A stretch of 64,000 nucleotides of DNA. Source: Alphaproteobacteria bacterium. GTDB taxonomy: Bacteria > Pseudomonadota > Alphaproteobacteria > Reyranellales > Reyranellaceae. Positions 54,993-59,382 of the stretch are shown piece by piece. Below the pieces are notes generated by a model that was not told the origin of the DNA, searched no databases, and worked only from the letters and a program-made list of their open reading frames with translations. Location: positions 1 to 64,000 of the forward strand of contig VGCH01000007.1 of assembly GCA_016870115.1 (NCBI GenBank). Reading direction: 5' to 3'. Positions within the stretch are counted from its first letter, which is position 1, and each line of letters opens with the position of its first letter. The translations under genes were made by a program, and so were the position numbers.

Positions 54993-57275
54993 TCAGGCCG
55001 GTTCGACGAAGGAGTCGAGTACCTTCTTGGCACCGGCCTTGTCGAAGGCGATGTCGAGTTTGTTGCCGTCAATGGCCACGACCTGACCGTAGCCGAATTT
55101 CTGGTGGAACACGCGCTGACCGACGGCGAGATCCAGGCGATCGCCTGAGTCGGCGCGCCGGTCGTCCACAGTCTCGTCGCGGCGCTGGCGTCTTGTGCGC
55201 GCCGTCCCAAGGCTCTCGTACTCAAAGCCGTCGACCGCCTCGCGCAAGCCGCGCTGATGGCCTGCCGAGTAGGTGGCGTAGAGTCCGGCGTCGCTGCTCT
55301 CGTCCATTGAGTCGCCCGGCAATTCGCGCAGGAAGCGCGAGGGAGTCGCGGCTTGCCACTGATTGAAGATGCGGCGATTGGCTGCGAAGGAGACATAGGC
55401 CCGCTTGCGGGCTCGGGTCAGGCCGACATAGGCCAGCCGGCGTTCCTCCTCGAGACCCGCCTGACCCTTGTCGTCCATCGCGCGTTGGTTCGGGAAGAGG
55501 CCCTCTTCCCAGCCCGGCAGGAACACCGTGTCGAACTCCAGCCCCTTCGCCGCGTGCAGCGTCATCAGGCTGACGGCGTCCCCGTCAGCGTTGGCGGCAT
55601 TGTCGGTCAGGAGTGCGACGTGCTCCATAAACGCCGGCAAAGTGTCGAACTCCCGCAACGCGGCGATCAGCTCCTTCAGATTCTCAAGTCGCCCCTGCGC
55701 CTCCACCGAGCGGTCCGCGCGCAGCATGTCGGTGTAGCCCGATTCGTCCAGCACGGTCTCCGCTACCTCGACGTGGCTCATGCCCTCCAGCATCGTCCGC
55801 CAGCGGTCGAAACCGGCGATCAGATCGGAGAGCGACTTTCGCGGACGGCTCTTCAGCTCGTCGGTCTCGAGGGCAAGCCGGGCCGCCTCGACCAAGGGCA
55901 CGCGCCCACTGCGCTGAATAGAGCGCAGGGTGCGCAAGGCCTGCTCGCCGAGGCCGCGTCGCGGCGTGTTGTAGATGCGCTCGAAGGCGAGATCGTCCGC
56001 CGGCTGGACGATCACCCGGAAGTAGGCCAGGGCGTCGCGAATCTCCTGTCGCTCGTAGAAGCGCGGGCCGCCGATCACGCGGTAGGGCAGCCCGAGCTTG
56101 ATGAAGCGCTCCTCGAACTCGCGCGTCTGGAGCCCCGCCCGGACGAGAATGGCGATCTGCCCCAACGGATGGCGGTCGCGCTGCAGCGCTTCGATCTCCT
56201 CGCCGATACCGCGTGCCTCCTCATCGCCATCCCAGACGCCGCGCAGCCGGACTTTCTCGCCGTCCTTGACCGCGGTCCACAGGGTCTTGCCGAGGCGGCC
56301 AGCGTTGTGGGCGATGAGGTGCGAGGCCGCGCTCAGGATGTGCGGGGTGGACCGGTAGTTGCGCTCCAGCCGGACGATGGAGGCGCCGGGGAAATCCTTC
56401 TCGAAGCGAAGGATGTTGCCGACCTCGGCGCCGCGCCAGCCGTAAATCGACTGGTCGTCGTCGCCGACGCAGCAGACATCGCGCGTGCCCTGCGCCAGTA
56501 ATCGCAGCCAGAGATACTGCGCGACGTTGGTGTCCTGGTACTCGTCGACCAGCAGGTGCCGCAGACGCCGGTGGTACTGGGCGAGCACGTCCGGGTGTTT
56601 CTGCCAGAGCGTGACGCAATGCATCACGAGGTCGCCGAAATCGGCGGCGTTCACCGCGAGCAGTCGCTCCTGGTACTGGCGATAGATGTCGGCGGCCCGG
56701 CCGTCGGCGAATTCACTGGCATCCTCGCCGCCCACCTTGTCCGGGGTGAGCGCGCGATCCTTCCATCGCTGGATGATTCCGCTCAGAACGCGCGGCGGCC
56801 ATTTTTTGTCGTCGATCCCCTCGGCCTCGAGCAGTTGCTTGATGAGGCGCGTCTGGTCGTCCGTGTCGAGGATCGTGAAGCCGCTCTTCAGGCCGACCAG
56901 CTCTGCATGGCGACGCAGGATGCGCACCCCGATCGCATGGAAGGTGCCGAGCCACATACCCTCGGCGGCACCGCCGATCAGGCCGCTCACCCGGTCCATC
57001 ATCTCGCGTGCGGCCTTGTTGGTGAAGGTGACGGCGAGGATCTGCGAGGCGCGGGCGCGGCCCGAAATCAACAGGTGGGCGATGCGCGTGGTGAGCACAC
57101 GGGTCTTGCCGGTGCCGGCGCCCGCCAGCACCAGCAGCGGGCCGGCATCGTGGATGGCAGCGGCGCGCTGCTCGGGGTTCAACCCCTCCAGATGGGCGAG
57201 CGACGCCACCGCGCGGGCCGGCGCCGGCGGCGACGGAGCGTCGGTGAGGTCGAACGGATCATCCGGCGGCGACAT
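54993..57275 (-). CDS. pcrA: ATP-dependent DNA helicase UvrD/PcrA
   Basis: This is a superfamily 1A 3'-5' helicase of DNA repair and replication. The 760-residue product shows the Q-motif LNPEQRAA, Walker A AGAGTGKTRVL, motif Ia VTFTNKAA, motif II VDEYQDTN, GDDDQSIYGWRGA, TLHAAKGLEFDTVFLPG and VGLTRARK. The C-terminus has a Tudor-like segment (VGQRVFHQKFGYGQVVAIDG) typical of PcrA/UvrD and used for RNA polymerase contact. No ribosome-binding site is seen; a TATACA hexamer lies 7 bp before the ATG. Confidence 0.97.
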   Translation of the reverse strand: MSPPDDPFDLTDAPSPPAPARAVASLAHLEGLNPEQRAAAIHDAGPLLVLAGAGTGKTRVLTTRIAHLLISGRARASQILAVTFTNKAAREMMDRVSGLIGGAAEGMWLGTFHAIGVRILRRHAELVGLKSGFTILDTDDQTRLIKQLLEAEGIDDKKWPPRVLSGIIQRWKDRALTPDKVGGEDASEFADGRAADIYRQYQERLLAVNAADFGDLVMHCVTLWQKHPDVLAQYHRRLRHLLVDEYQDTNVAQYLWLRLLAQGTRDVCCVGDDDQSIYGWRGAEVGNILRFEKDFPGASIVRLERNYRSTPHILSAASHLIAHNAGRLGKTLWTAVKDGEKVRLRGVWDGDEEARGIGEEIEALQRDRHPLGQIAILVRAGLQTREFEERFIKLGLPYRVIGGPRFYERQEIRDALAYFRVIVQPADDLAFERIYNTPRRGLGEQALRTLRSIQRSGRVPLVEAARLALETDELKSRPRKSLSDLIAGFDRWRTMLEGMSHVEVAETVLDESGYTDMLRADRSVEAQGRLENLKELIAALREFDTLPAFMEHVALLTDNAANADGDAVSLMTLHAAKGLEFDTVFLPGWEEGLFPNQRAMDDKGQAGLEEERRLAYVGLTRARKRAYVSFAANRRIFNQWQAATPSRFLRELPGDSMDESSDAGLYATYSAGHQRGLREAVDGFEYESLGTARTRRQRRDETVDDRRADSGDRLDLAVGQRVFHQKFGYGQVVAIDGNKLDIAFDKAGAKKVLDSFVEPA

Positions 57276-57347
57276 GCGCGATTGTATAGCAATGGCGCCT
57301 GTGGACGCCTATCCTCGGATCCGCCACGAAGGAGGCGGGTGAGCGGG

Positions 57348-58349
57348 ATGACCGGCAATCGCGGTTTTTGGGCGCGAGCACGGGCCAACGCCGATAGCGA
57401 GGGCTCGGGAGGCGGGACGTCGAGCTTGCCGCCGGCAGTCGCGTCCGCCCTGCCGTCGGTCGTTGGCCTTGCCGCGCGCATCCCTGAGGACCGGCGGACA
57501 GCCCGGACGCTCGGCACGGAGCGCGAGGGGCATGGCATCTTGATCGACGACGATGGGCTGATCGTCACCATCGGCTATCTCATCATGGAGGCTCAGTCGG
57601 TGACGATCACCGACCTTTCGGGCCACGAATTGCCGGCGCGTATCGTCGGCTACGACTACGAGAGCGGGTTCGGTCTGGTCCGGACGCTGCGCCCGCCGGC
57701 CGTGGGACCGATTCGCTTCGGCGATTCCGATTCGCTCGATGTCCGGAGCGAGGCCTGGGTCGCGGGTGTGGGCGGTGCCAAGGCATCACTGAAGGTGCGG
57801 GTCGCCGGCCGGCGCGAATTCGCCGGTTACTGGGAATATCTGCTCGATGATGCGCTGTTCACGGTGCCGGCCTATCCGCTGTGGGGCGGCTCTGGGCTCA
57901 TCGGGCAGGATGGCACATTGCTGGGCGTTGGATCGCTCCTCGTGCAGGAGGCGCTGGGTCCGGGCGCGCCCGCGTTCCCGGGCAACATGTTCGTTCCGAT
58001 CAACCGCCTCAAGCCGATCTTCGATGAGCTTCTGGCGAATGGGCGTATCAGCACGCCACCCAAGCCGTGGCTTGGCGTCTACACGATGGAACACCGCGGA
58101 CAACTCGTGATCGGCGGTATCGCGGAGGGCGGTCCGGCGGATCGTGCCGGTCTGAAGCAGGGCGACGTCCTGCTGGCTCTAAACGGTGAGGAACTCGACG
58201 AGGTCGCGGAGTTCTATCGTCTGCTGTGGGCGGCCGGCCCTGCCGGTGTGCCCCTGAGTTTCCGGCTACAGCGCGACAGTGATGCCTTCGACATGACGAT
58301 CCGTTCGGGCGATCGGATGAAGTACCTCAATTTCGAATCCAGCCTGTGA
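57348..58349 (+). CDS. HtrA/Deg-like protein with PDZ domain and degenerate catalytic triad
   Basis: The 333-residue product has an S1-protease-like fold (about 60-235) and a C-terminal PDZ domain (about 240-330: PWLGVYT, GGIAEGGPADRAGLKQGDVLLALNG). At the triad, the His position reads TIG-Y77 where active HtrA has TNNH, the Asp position reads ESGFGLV where TDLAL is usual, and only the Ser remains (S182 in GGSGL). No signal peptide or membrane helix is seen, so it is probably a cytoplasmic non-protease scaffold. ATG 57348 has AAGGAGG 12 bases before it; GTG 57339 is possible. Confidence 0.8.
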   Translation: MTGNRGFWARARANADSEGSGGGTSSLPPAVASALPSVVGLAARIPEDRRTARTLGTEREGHGILIDDDGLIVTIGYLIMEAQSVTITDLSGHELPARIVGYDYESGFGLVRTLRPPAVGPIRFGDSDSLDVRSEAWVAGVGGAKASLKVRVAGRREFAGYWEYLLDDALFTVPAYPLWGGSGLIGQDGTLLGVGSLLVQEALGPGAPAFPGNMFVPINRLKPIFDELLANGRISTPPKPWLGVYTMEHRGQLVIGGIAEGGPADRAGLKQGDVLLALNGEELDEVAEFYRLLWAAGPAGVPLSFRLQRDSDAFDMTIRSGDRMKYLNFESSL

Positions 58350-58369
58350 ATTGTTGGCGCCTCGGTGCT

Positions 58370-58399
58370 TTGACGGGGCCGTCGACCGGTCGCTAGTTT
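58370..58399 (+). promoter_or_regulatory. Candidate promoter of the MBL/monooxygenase cluster
   Basis: TTGACG (58370-58375) and TAGTTT (58394-58399) are spaced 18 bp apart in the 76-bp gap before the MBL gene. The -35 box is close to consensus and the -10 box is weak. An AGGGGAACGGG ribosome-binding stretch follows. Confidence 0.4.
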
Positions 58400-58425
58400 G
58401 GCCCGGCACCATACAGGGGAACGGG

Positions 58426-59382
58426 ATGGCCAAAGCCTTCGCCTCGCAGGCGGATCTCGCCGACAAGAAAATCACGTTCAGCCGGATGTCGGATCATGCC
58501 TACGCCTTCACCGCCGAGGGCGACCCCAACACGGGAATCGTGATCGGCGACGACGCGGTCATGGTGATCGATACCCAGGCGACCCCGGTGATGGCGCAGC
58601 AGGTGATCGAGCGCGTGCGCAGTGTCACGGACAAGCCGATCCGCTATGTCGTGCTCACGCACTACCACGCGGTTCGGGTGCTGGGCGCTTCGGCCTACGA
58701 GCCGCAGCACATCATCTGCTCGGAAGCCACCCGCGAGATGATCGTCGAGCGGGGCGCGCAGGACTACAAGTCCGAGGTCCAACGCTTCCCGCGGCTTTTC
58801 CAGGCGGTCGAATCGGTGCCCGGGCTGACCTGGCCCACGATCGTCTTCAACGACCGCACGTCGCTGTGGCTCGGCAAGCTTCAGGTCGACATCATCCATG
58901 CGGGGCGGGGCCACACCAAGGGCGACACGATCGTGTGGCTGCCGCAGGATCGTGTGCTGTTCAGCGGCGATCTCGTCGAGTACGGCGCGGCGCCCTACTG
59001 CGGCGACGCCCACTTCAAGGATTGGCCGCAGACGCTGCAGAAGCTGCGCGACCTGCGCGCCGACGCGCTGGTTCCGGGTCGGGGCGACGCCCTGATGGGC
59101 GAAGCGGCGGTTGAGGAGGGGTTGGCCGGCACGCAGGCCTTCTTGACCGACCTCTATCGCGTCGTGTCGGACCGGGTCGCCGCCGGCGACGATCTGCGCG
59201 CGGTCTATGAGAAGACTTACGCGGCGCTCCAGCCGCGCTACGGCAACTGGGTGATTTTCGAGCACTGCATGCCGTTCAATGTCTCGCGGGCCTTCGACGA
59301 GGCCAAGGGGCTCGACCATCCGCGCATCTGGACGGCCGAGCGCGATATCGAGATGTGGCAGTCGCTGGAGCGCGCCGCCTGA
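58426..59382 (+). CDS. Metallo-beta-lactamase-fold protein with altered metal site
   Basis: The 318-residue product has the MBL fold with GIVIGDDAVMVIDTQAT, LTHYHAVRVLGAS, AGRGHTKGDTIVWLP and VLFSGDLVEYG. Active hydrolases carry HxHxDH; here H79 and H81 are kept but the Asp-His pair is Val83-Arg84, while H163, D167 and the later Asp remain. One metal site should therefore be lost or rebuilt. Similar HYHAVRVLGAS proteins recur beside FAD monooxygenases in alphaproteobacteria. First gene of the cluster; the next starts 10 bp downstream. Confidence 0.85.
   Translation: MAKAFASQADLADKKITFSRMSDHAYAFTAEGDPNTGIVIGDDAVMVIDTQATPVMAQQVIERVRSVTDKPIRYVVLTHYHAVRVLGASAYEPQHIICSEATREMIVERGAQDYKSEVQRFPRLFQAVESVPGLTWPTIVFNDRTSLWLGKLQVDIIHAGRGHTKGDTIVWLPQDRVLFSGDLVEYGAAPYCGDAHFKDWPQTLQKLRDLRADALVPGRGDALMGEAAVEEGLAGTQAFLTDLYRVVSDRVAAGDDLRAVYEKTYAALQPRYGNWVIFEHCMPFNVSRAFDEAKGLDHPRIWTAERDIEMWQSLERAA

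Follow-up and report, generated by a model that had tools for sequence, protein, structure and literature searches.

An HtrA-derived candidate pseudoprotease encoded beside pcrA belongs to a widespread, mainly alphaproteobacterial family without an intact catalytic triad

The window, meaning the whole 64,000-nucleotide stretch of DNA that was analysed, carries a real gene for a protein of HtrA fold in which, judged from the alignments, all three residues of the catalytic triad are gone and their positions are taken by Tyr77, Gly107 and Gly180. Comparison with homologues indicates that this gene (the query) is maintained under purifying selection, that it belongs to a conserved, widespread and mainly alphaproteobacterial family of putative pseudoproteases derived from HtrA, and that members of the family appear to have changed cellular compartment more than once. 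As the best explanation overall we favour, with modest confidence, a cytosolic, non-catalytic PDZ scaffold or holdase that belongs to this family. The gene and its domains lie as follows.

57348..58349, plus strand: putative HtrA-type pseudoprotease gene (333 aa), from the open reading frame, its translation and dN/dS against relatives
57330-57335, plus strand: AGGAGG, a plausible ribosome-binding site for the ATG at 57348
57348..57428, plus strand: N-terminal tail, residues 1-27, with no signal peptide and with low model confidence to about residue 20
57528..57929, plus strand: Trypsin_2 (protease-like) domain, residues 61-194, from Pfam; a PF13365 search of the query's own genome finds the same stretch
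58065..58076, plus strand: P240-W241-L242-G243, taken to be the PDZ ligand (carboxylate-binding) loop, from conservation in 225 members and the HtrA alignment
58068..58298, plus strand: PDZ domain, residues 241-317, from Pfam (PDZ_2, PDZ_6)

Both domains pass the Pfam cut-offs (Trypsin_2, E 9.2e-11; PDZ, best E 7.6e-10), and the order of a trypsin-like domain followed by one PDZ domain, which Pfam, the structure model and the PDB matches all give, is that of HtrA/Do proteins. An AlphaFold2 model built on 72 family sequences has a mean pLDDT of 92.6 and a pTM of 0.89. When it was compared with PDB chains by VIA-align, the best 50 of 992 were HtrA/Deg proteins (Z 22.3-25.3), among them 3qo6_B (Z 25.3, rmsd 6.2, 287 aligned) and 5t69 (Z 24.6, rmsd 4.3, 257 aligned), and the PDB matches shown by Foldseek were also HtrA/Deg proteins, with E down to 4.5e-23. 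A sequence-only reading of this gene had claimed that fold and PDZ domain are preserved, and these matches bear it out. Since the whole-chain TM-scores of Foldseek are modest when taken by query length (0.45-0.56), the arrangement of the domains is less secure than the domains themselves, and in the model it may differ from that of known HtrAs. DegP, DegQ, DegS and HtrA, the Do family (peptidase family S1C), have the fold, the domain order and the PDZ ligand loop in common with the query and are its best PDB matches. Unlike them, the query has a replaced triad, a single PDZ domain and no signal peptide, and it scores below the cut-off of every listed NCBIfam model for DegP/DegQ/DegS/HtrA, and far below in the case of TIGR02037 (68.9 versus 416.2). 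Its own genome encodes two other Trypsin_2 proteins and no second close copy of the query in an own-genome search; one of these two, the HtrA L002, has an intact triad in the alignment.

Four codons bear on the state of the triad.

57576..57578, plus strand: codon of Tyr77, which takes the place of the catalytic His; 221 of 225 members have Y
57666..57668, plus strand: codon of Gly107, which takes the place of the catalytic Asp; 224 of 225 members have G
57885..57887, plus strand: codon of Gly180, at the catalytic Ser position; register in two alignments, G in 178 of 225 members
57891..57893, plus strand: codon of Ser182, which aligns to the second Gly of GNSGG and is not the nucleophile; two alignments, variable column

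Alignments to DegP/DegQ and to L002 agree in placing Tyr77 over the His (TIGY versus TNNH) and Gly107 over the Asp (SGFGL versus SDIAL), as the sequence-only reading had it. That reading also held that Ser182 alone of the triad is kept, and here it has to be corrected. When the family profile is aligned to DegP, W179-G180-G181-S182 falls on the N-S-G-G of GNSGG, and the register is identical when three triad-bearing HtrAs, one of them from the query's genome, are aligned by MAFFT. Because Ser182 pairs with the second Gly of that motif, it is not the nucleophile; both this register and the variability of residue 182 in the family (A128 S43 T37 C11 G6) rule it out as a surviving one. Across the 225 distinct members, counted with the query and without the three HtrAs, duplicate rows or new matches shorter than 200 positions, the His position reads Y221 F2 H1 with one gap, the Asp position G224 with one gap, and the Ser position G178 S28 A10 T3 Q3 P2 N1. 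More than one triad residue is found in none of the 225, and the 28 members with Ser at the nucleophile position have Tyr and Gly at the other two. His occurs in a single member, L219 (genome G349), where Gly replaces the Asp and Pro the Ser. The His-Asp-Ser triad that belongs to an HtrA/Do protease is thus missing from the query.

The sequence-only reading had proposed looking for conservation of Tyr77 and of the PDZ groove, and both Tyr77 and the PDZ ligand loop are conserved: besides Tyr77, the loop has Gly at position 243 in all 225 members and Trp at 241 in 222 of them (Tyr in 3). The W-L/I-G of this loop is present in the three aligned HtrAs too, and the P240-W241-L242-G243 of the query, whose role in binding the ligand carboxylate we take from HtrA PDZ domains, would be the kept loop of a canonical peptide-binding PDZ domain. 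W162, E163, Y164 and G181 are invariant, like G243, in 225 of 225 members. Outside the PDZ domain, W162, E163, Y164, S196, N213 and P217 are invariant or nearly so and could mark an active or binding site of another kind, a point against the scaffold reading. The 72-row alignment A1 has 34 invariant columns, which include Y77, D103, W162-E163-Y164, S196 and R59, and such conservation would also be expected of a new enzyme, with the trypsin-like scaffold rebuilt around Tyr77, Asp103, Glu163, Ser196 and Arg59 for a different reaction. However, none of the 34 columns is His, Cys or Lys, and ordinary HtrAs match the family at D103 (D in 3 of 3) and at E163 (E or D in 3 of 3), and we regard this as quite unlikely. 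The same lack of His, Cys and Lys rules out an alternative conserved triad; the sequence-only reading had named an alternative intact triad as what would count against it, and none was found.

Over a 270-residue core the query is 71.5-77.0% identical to 26 Reyranella-type relatives, with dN/dS of 0.135-0.235, and 312 pairs of relatives more than 78% identical, none of them including the query, have a median dN/dS of 0.162 and a maximum of 0.40. The query thus appears to combine the three marks of a pseudoprotease, namely a kept protease fold, lost catalytic residues and purifying selection. A decaying pseudogene of an HtrA protease might also have lost its triad, and in relative G001 a stop interrupts the exported copy of the gene, but the low dN/dS in the comparisons with the query and among relatives led us to reject this reading as almost certainly mistaken; the 34 columns invariant in 72 rows, and the five residues invariant in 225 members, speak against it as well.

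The family is common near the query, where 38 of 61 genomes match at E 1e-20, including 35 of the 37 within the query's own family. In a class-wide sample, the class being Alphaproteobacteria as inferred from named relatives, 98 of 385 genomes (about a quarter) match at E 1e-30, a count that includes several fragment matches and one genome, G084, whose match (E 6.4e-34) probably represents an ordinary HtrA. Of 299 genomes in a phylum-wide sample, 31 match; three of these matches, near E 1e-31, resemble ordinary HtrAs (checked by alignment for two of them), and 1 of the remaining 28 lies outside the class. Reyranella, Microvirga, Azospirillum and Rhizobium are among the named records with family members, and a few matching metagenome bins are labelled Beta- or Gammaproteobacteria, Desulfobacterales or Syntrophaceae. 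Relatives also occur on large plasmids of Azospirillum and Rhizobium; 26 plasmid records match, and among the 15 listed none has an annotated feature under the match. A literature search outside subscription papers and preprints gave nothing on the family among the matches listed.

Export was called with a hydrophobicity rule instead of SignalP, the score being that of the strongest 12-residue stretch without charge. The scan finds no such hydrophobic stretch in the query and does find one in exported homologues, in line with the earlier claim that an export signal is absent, and none is visible in the stretch from the pcrA start to residue 27 either. The query therefore lacks the signal peptide or membrane anchor of HtrA/Do proteins, which other branches of the family have, and the N-termini of the family are of two kinds, signal-like or a polar tail. 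Like the query, the 26 Reyranella-type loci encode the cytosolic form, with no stretch in 24 of them and scores of 0.53 and 0.07 in the other two. It could be argued that the query is exported and that its start or signal was missed, since both the locus type beside pcrA and the query's branch of the tree include exported relatives; the absence of an uncharged hydrophobic stretch led us to reject this as very improbable, and the scores of the Reyranella-type relatives also count against it. A motif near the start, NGH/NGY[RK], was seen in 11 of 145 cytosolic-type rows (for example L182, L199, L206 and L209), and docking is a possible role for it. As a family motif it was rejected: shuffles give a mean of 0.1 against the 11 seen, but related rows inflate this number and most rows are without the motif.

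Genomes with two copies divide them between the two forms. In the class sample, all 33 complete two-copy genomes have one exported and one cytosolic form, each pair having been assigned by eye before scoring, and the strongest stretch reaches no more than 0.88 in one member of each pair and no less than 1.81 in its partner (24 + 9 pairs); G174, G334 and G347, with two or more matches, were left out because of fragments. Within the query's own family, G003, G006, G009 and G012 have a single, exported copy (2.35-2.38), and G004, G007 and G013 have an exported copy with a second copy in tandem. The tandems of an exported and a second copy noted in relatives within the query's own family are L032, L033, L215 and L217, and in L217 (G001) the exported copy of the tandem is interrupted by a stop. 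The second tandem copies (G004, G007, G013 and G001) carry an intermediate stretch, TTIAMASLMPIF, that scores 1.39-1.6 and by eye resembles the signal core IAIASLVPVFL of the single exported copies. This stretch looks like a signal peptide in decay, and the second copies could be weakly exported, their score being below those of all exported copies of the 33 pairs, though not far below.

In a 97-row tree with three HtrAs as the outgroup, the exported forms sit near the base (supports 80-90, the root resting on three distant HtrAs with a branch of 2.05), and a single branch (support 80) holds 53 cytosolic rows. The query lies apart from it, in a starred group of 8 rows of which 5 are cytosolic and 3 exported; the starred branches of this tree alone, in which 37 of 94 inner branches are open, imply at least two changes of the cytosolic label. 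Before this tree was made, L080, L065 and L144 had been moved to the cytosolic label and L052 set aside, and 18 of 210 matches had been dropped before the counts for short span or an identical core. L071 is labelled cytosolic in the 97-row tree and exported in the later HtrA alignment and AU test. A tree without the HtrAs and with L071 re-assigned needs three changes of label, and a single clade of all 58 cytosolic rows is rejected (p-AU 0.003), in a test that ran on a quick tree and with L071 re-assigned after a tree had been seen. If the root is right, the direction of change would be from exported to cytosolic.

Two genes flank the query.

54993..57275, minus strand: pcrA/uvrD-type DNA helicase gene, the divergent neighbour, from UvrD domains and synteny
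58426..59382, plus strand: metallo-beta-lactamase-fold gene, the downstream neighbour conserved in close relatives, from a domain search and synteny

The best NCBIfam model for the helicase is pcrA, at 808.3 bits and below its 911.2 cut-off. A divergent pcrA stands beside the Reyranella-type genes wherever the locus extends far enough, and in exported members of other lineages it is, by coordinates, adjacent or nearly so (L056, L077/L171, L100, L196, L197, L203) or further off (L063, L113, L173, L176, L180). None was found near the large cytosolic clade, within flanks of 1.5-8 kb or less. Since pcrA is common to the Reyranella-type genes and several exported relatives of other lineages and was not found near the large cytosolic clade, the neighbourhood looks like inherited gene order, not a role in DNA repair, and a functional link to pcrA was rejected on the ground that no pcrA-bearing locus belongs to that clade (in the same flanks). 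The sequence-only reading had called such a protein next to pcrA unusual; pcrA does adjoin it, but the setting is less unusual than that, the query being one member of a widespread family. The metallo-beta-lactamase-fold gene, followed in the query locus by an FAD monooxygenase, also comes next in L050 and L053, in the two tandem loci L032 and L033, and in those Reyranella-type loci that reach far enough downstream. No neighbour cluster recurs in most loci of the wider family, and outside the query's own family the neighbours suggest no single pathway among the matches listed. No promoter- or terminator-like sites were found in 57200-58500, where shuffles give 0.1 and 0.8. The protein of 58426-59382 has HYHAVR where the metal-binding motif HxHxDH is expected, and HYHAVR recurs in 43 of 43 hits that show the pattern (49 hits with the window's copies and duplicates, 6 of them without the pattern); this neighbour could likewise be an altered or inactive enzyme.

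From its sequence, the query is very probably a functional non-protease. A cytoplasmic HtrA pseudoprotease, as the sequence-only reading had proposed, fits these results more strongly than when it was put forward: the whole triad is lost, the loss is fixed in the family and P-W-L-G is kept. Its mode of action, by analogy a peptide-binding scaffold or holdase, is plausible but falls a little short of probable. HtrA proteins form trimers, their PDZ domains bind C-terminal peptides, and protease-dead variants can serve as chaperones. The protein would thus assemble, probably into a trimer as do protease-dead forms of ordinary HtrAs, and its PDZ loop would grip exposed C-termini or unfolded segments of clients, which would be held or presented uncut; the exported copy would act in the envelope and the cytosolic copy inside the cell. 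H. pylori HtrA, whose protease-dead form, made from an active enzyme, reportedly has chaperone activity (PMC6892219), is a model for a dead HtrA that still acts, whereas the loss in the query is natural and fixed. More speculatively, the exported and cytosolic copies might be a surveillance pair for two compartments, in which both read one shared class of C-terminal peptides, such as those of envelope proteins, ahead of export and following it; in the lineage of the query, the copy at the exported-type pcrA locus would have dropped its signal and taken the cytosolic role, with intermediates in the same family. We consider this extension somewhat unlikely.

The nearest precedent is MamO, which the available part of its description presents as an alphaproteobacterial Trypsin_2 protein of magnetotactic bacteria, a non-protease with a new function that has a C-terminal transporter domain, a Thr as predicted nucleophile and metal binding (PMC4794232). 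On that description, both are alphaproteobacterial trypsin-like proteins repurposed without catalysis; the query's family differs from MamO in having a PDZ domain instead of the transporter domain and in having lost His, Asp and Ser alike. No His that could belong to a MamO-type di-histidine metal site is invariant in A1, an alignment that MamO itself stands outside. MamO is also described there as activating MamE-dependent proteolysis (PMC4794232), and with two other Trypsin_2 proteins in its genome the query could similarly regulate active HtrA proteases, through mixed assemblies or by handing over clients. However, neither the query nor the large cytosolic clade has an export signal, so they would not meet HtrAs that are periplasmic, which makes such a regulator unlikely. 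In the available part of a 2008 survey of 91 genomes, which covers 966 serine proteases from five families, 42 of these are counted as putative inactive homologues (PMC2605481).

Bacterial pseudoproteases are rarely described, and the HtrA-type cases among the matches listed are MamO and its magnetosome relatives. The family studied here is likely to be mistaken for a serine protease, as Pfam scores it above the cut-off, and Trypsin_2 hits should not be counted as proteases without caution. If peptide binding is true, the non-catalytic scaffold or holdase that we favour would serve in quality control or sensing without cutting, and the family offers a natural experiment in which a periplasmic protein has moved into the cytosol.
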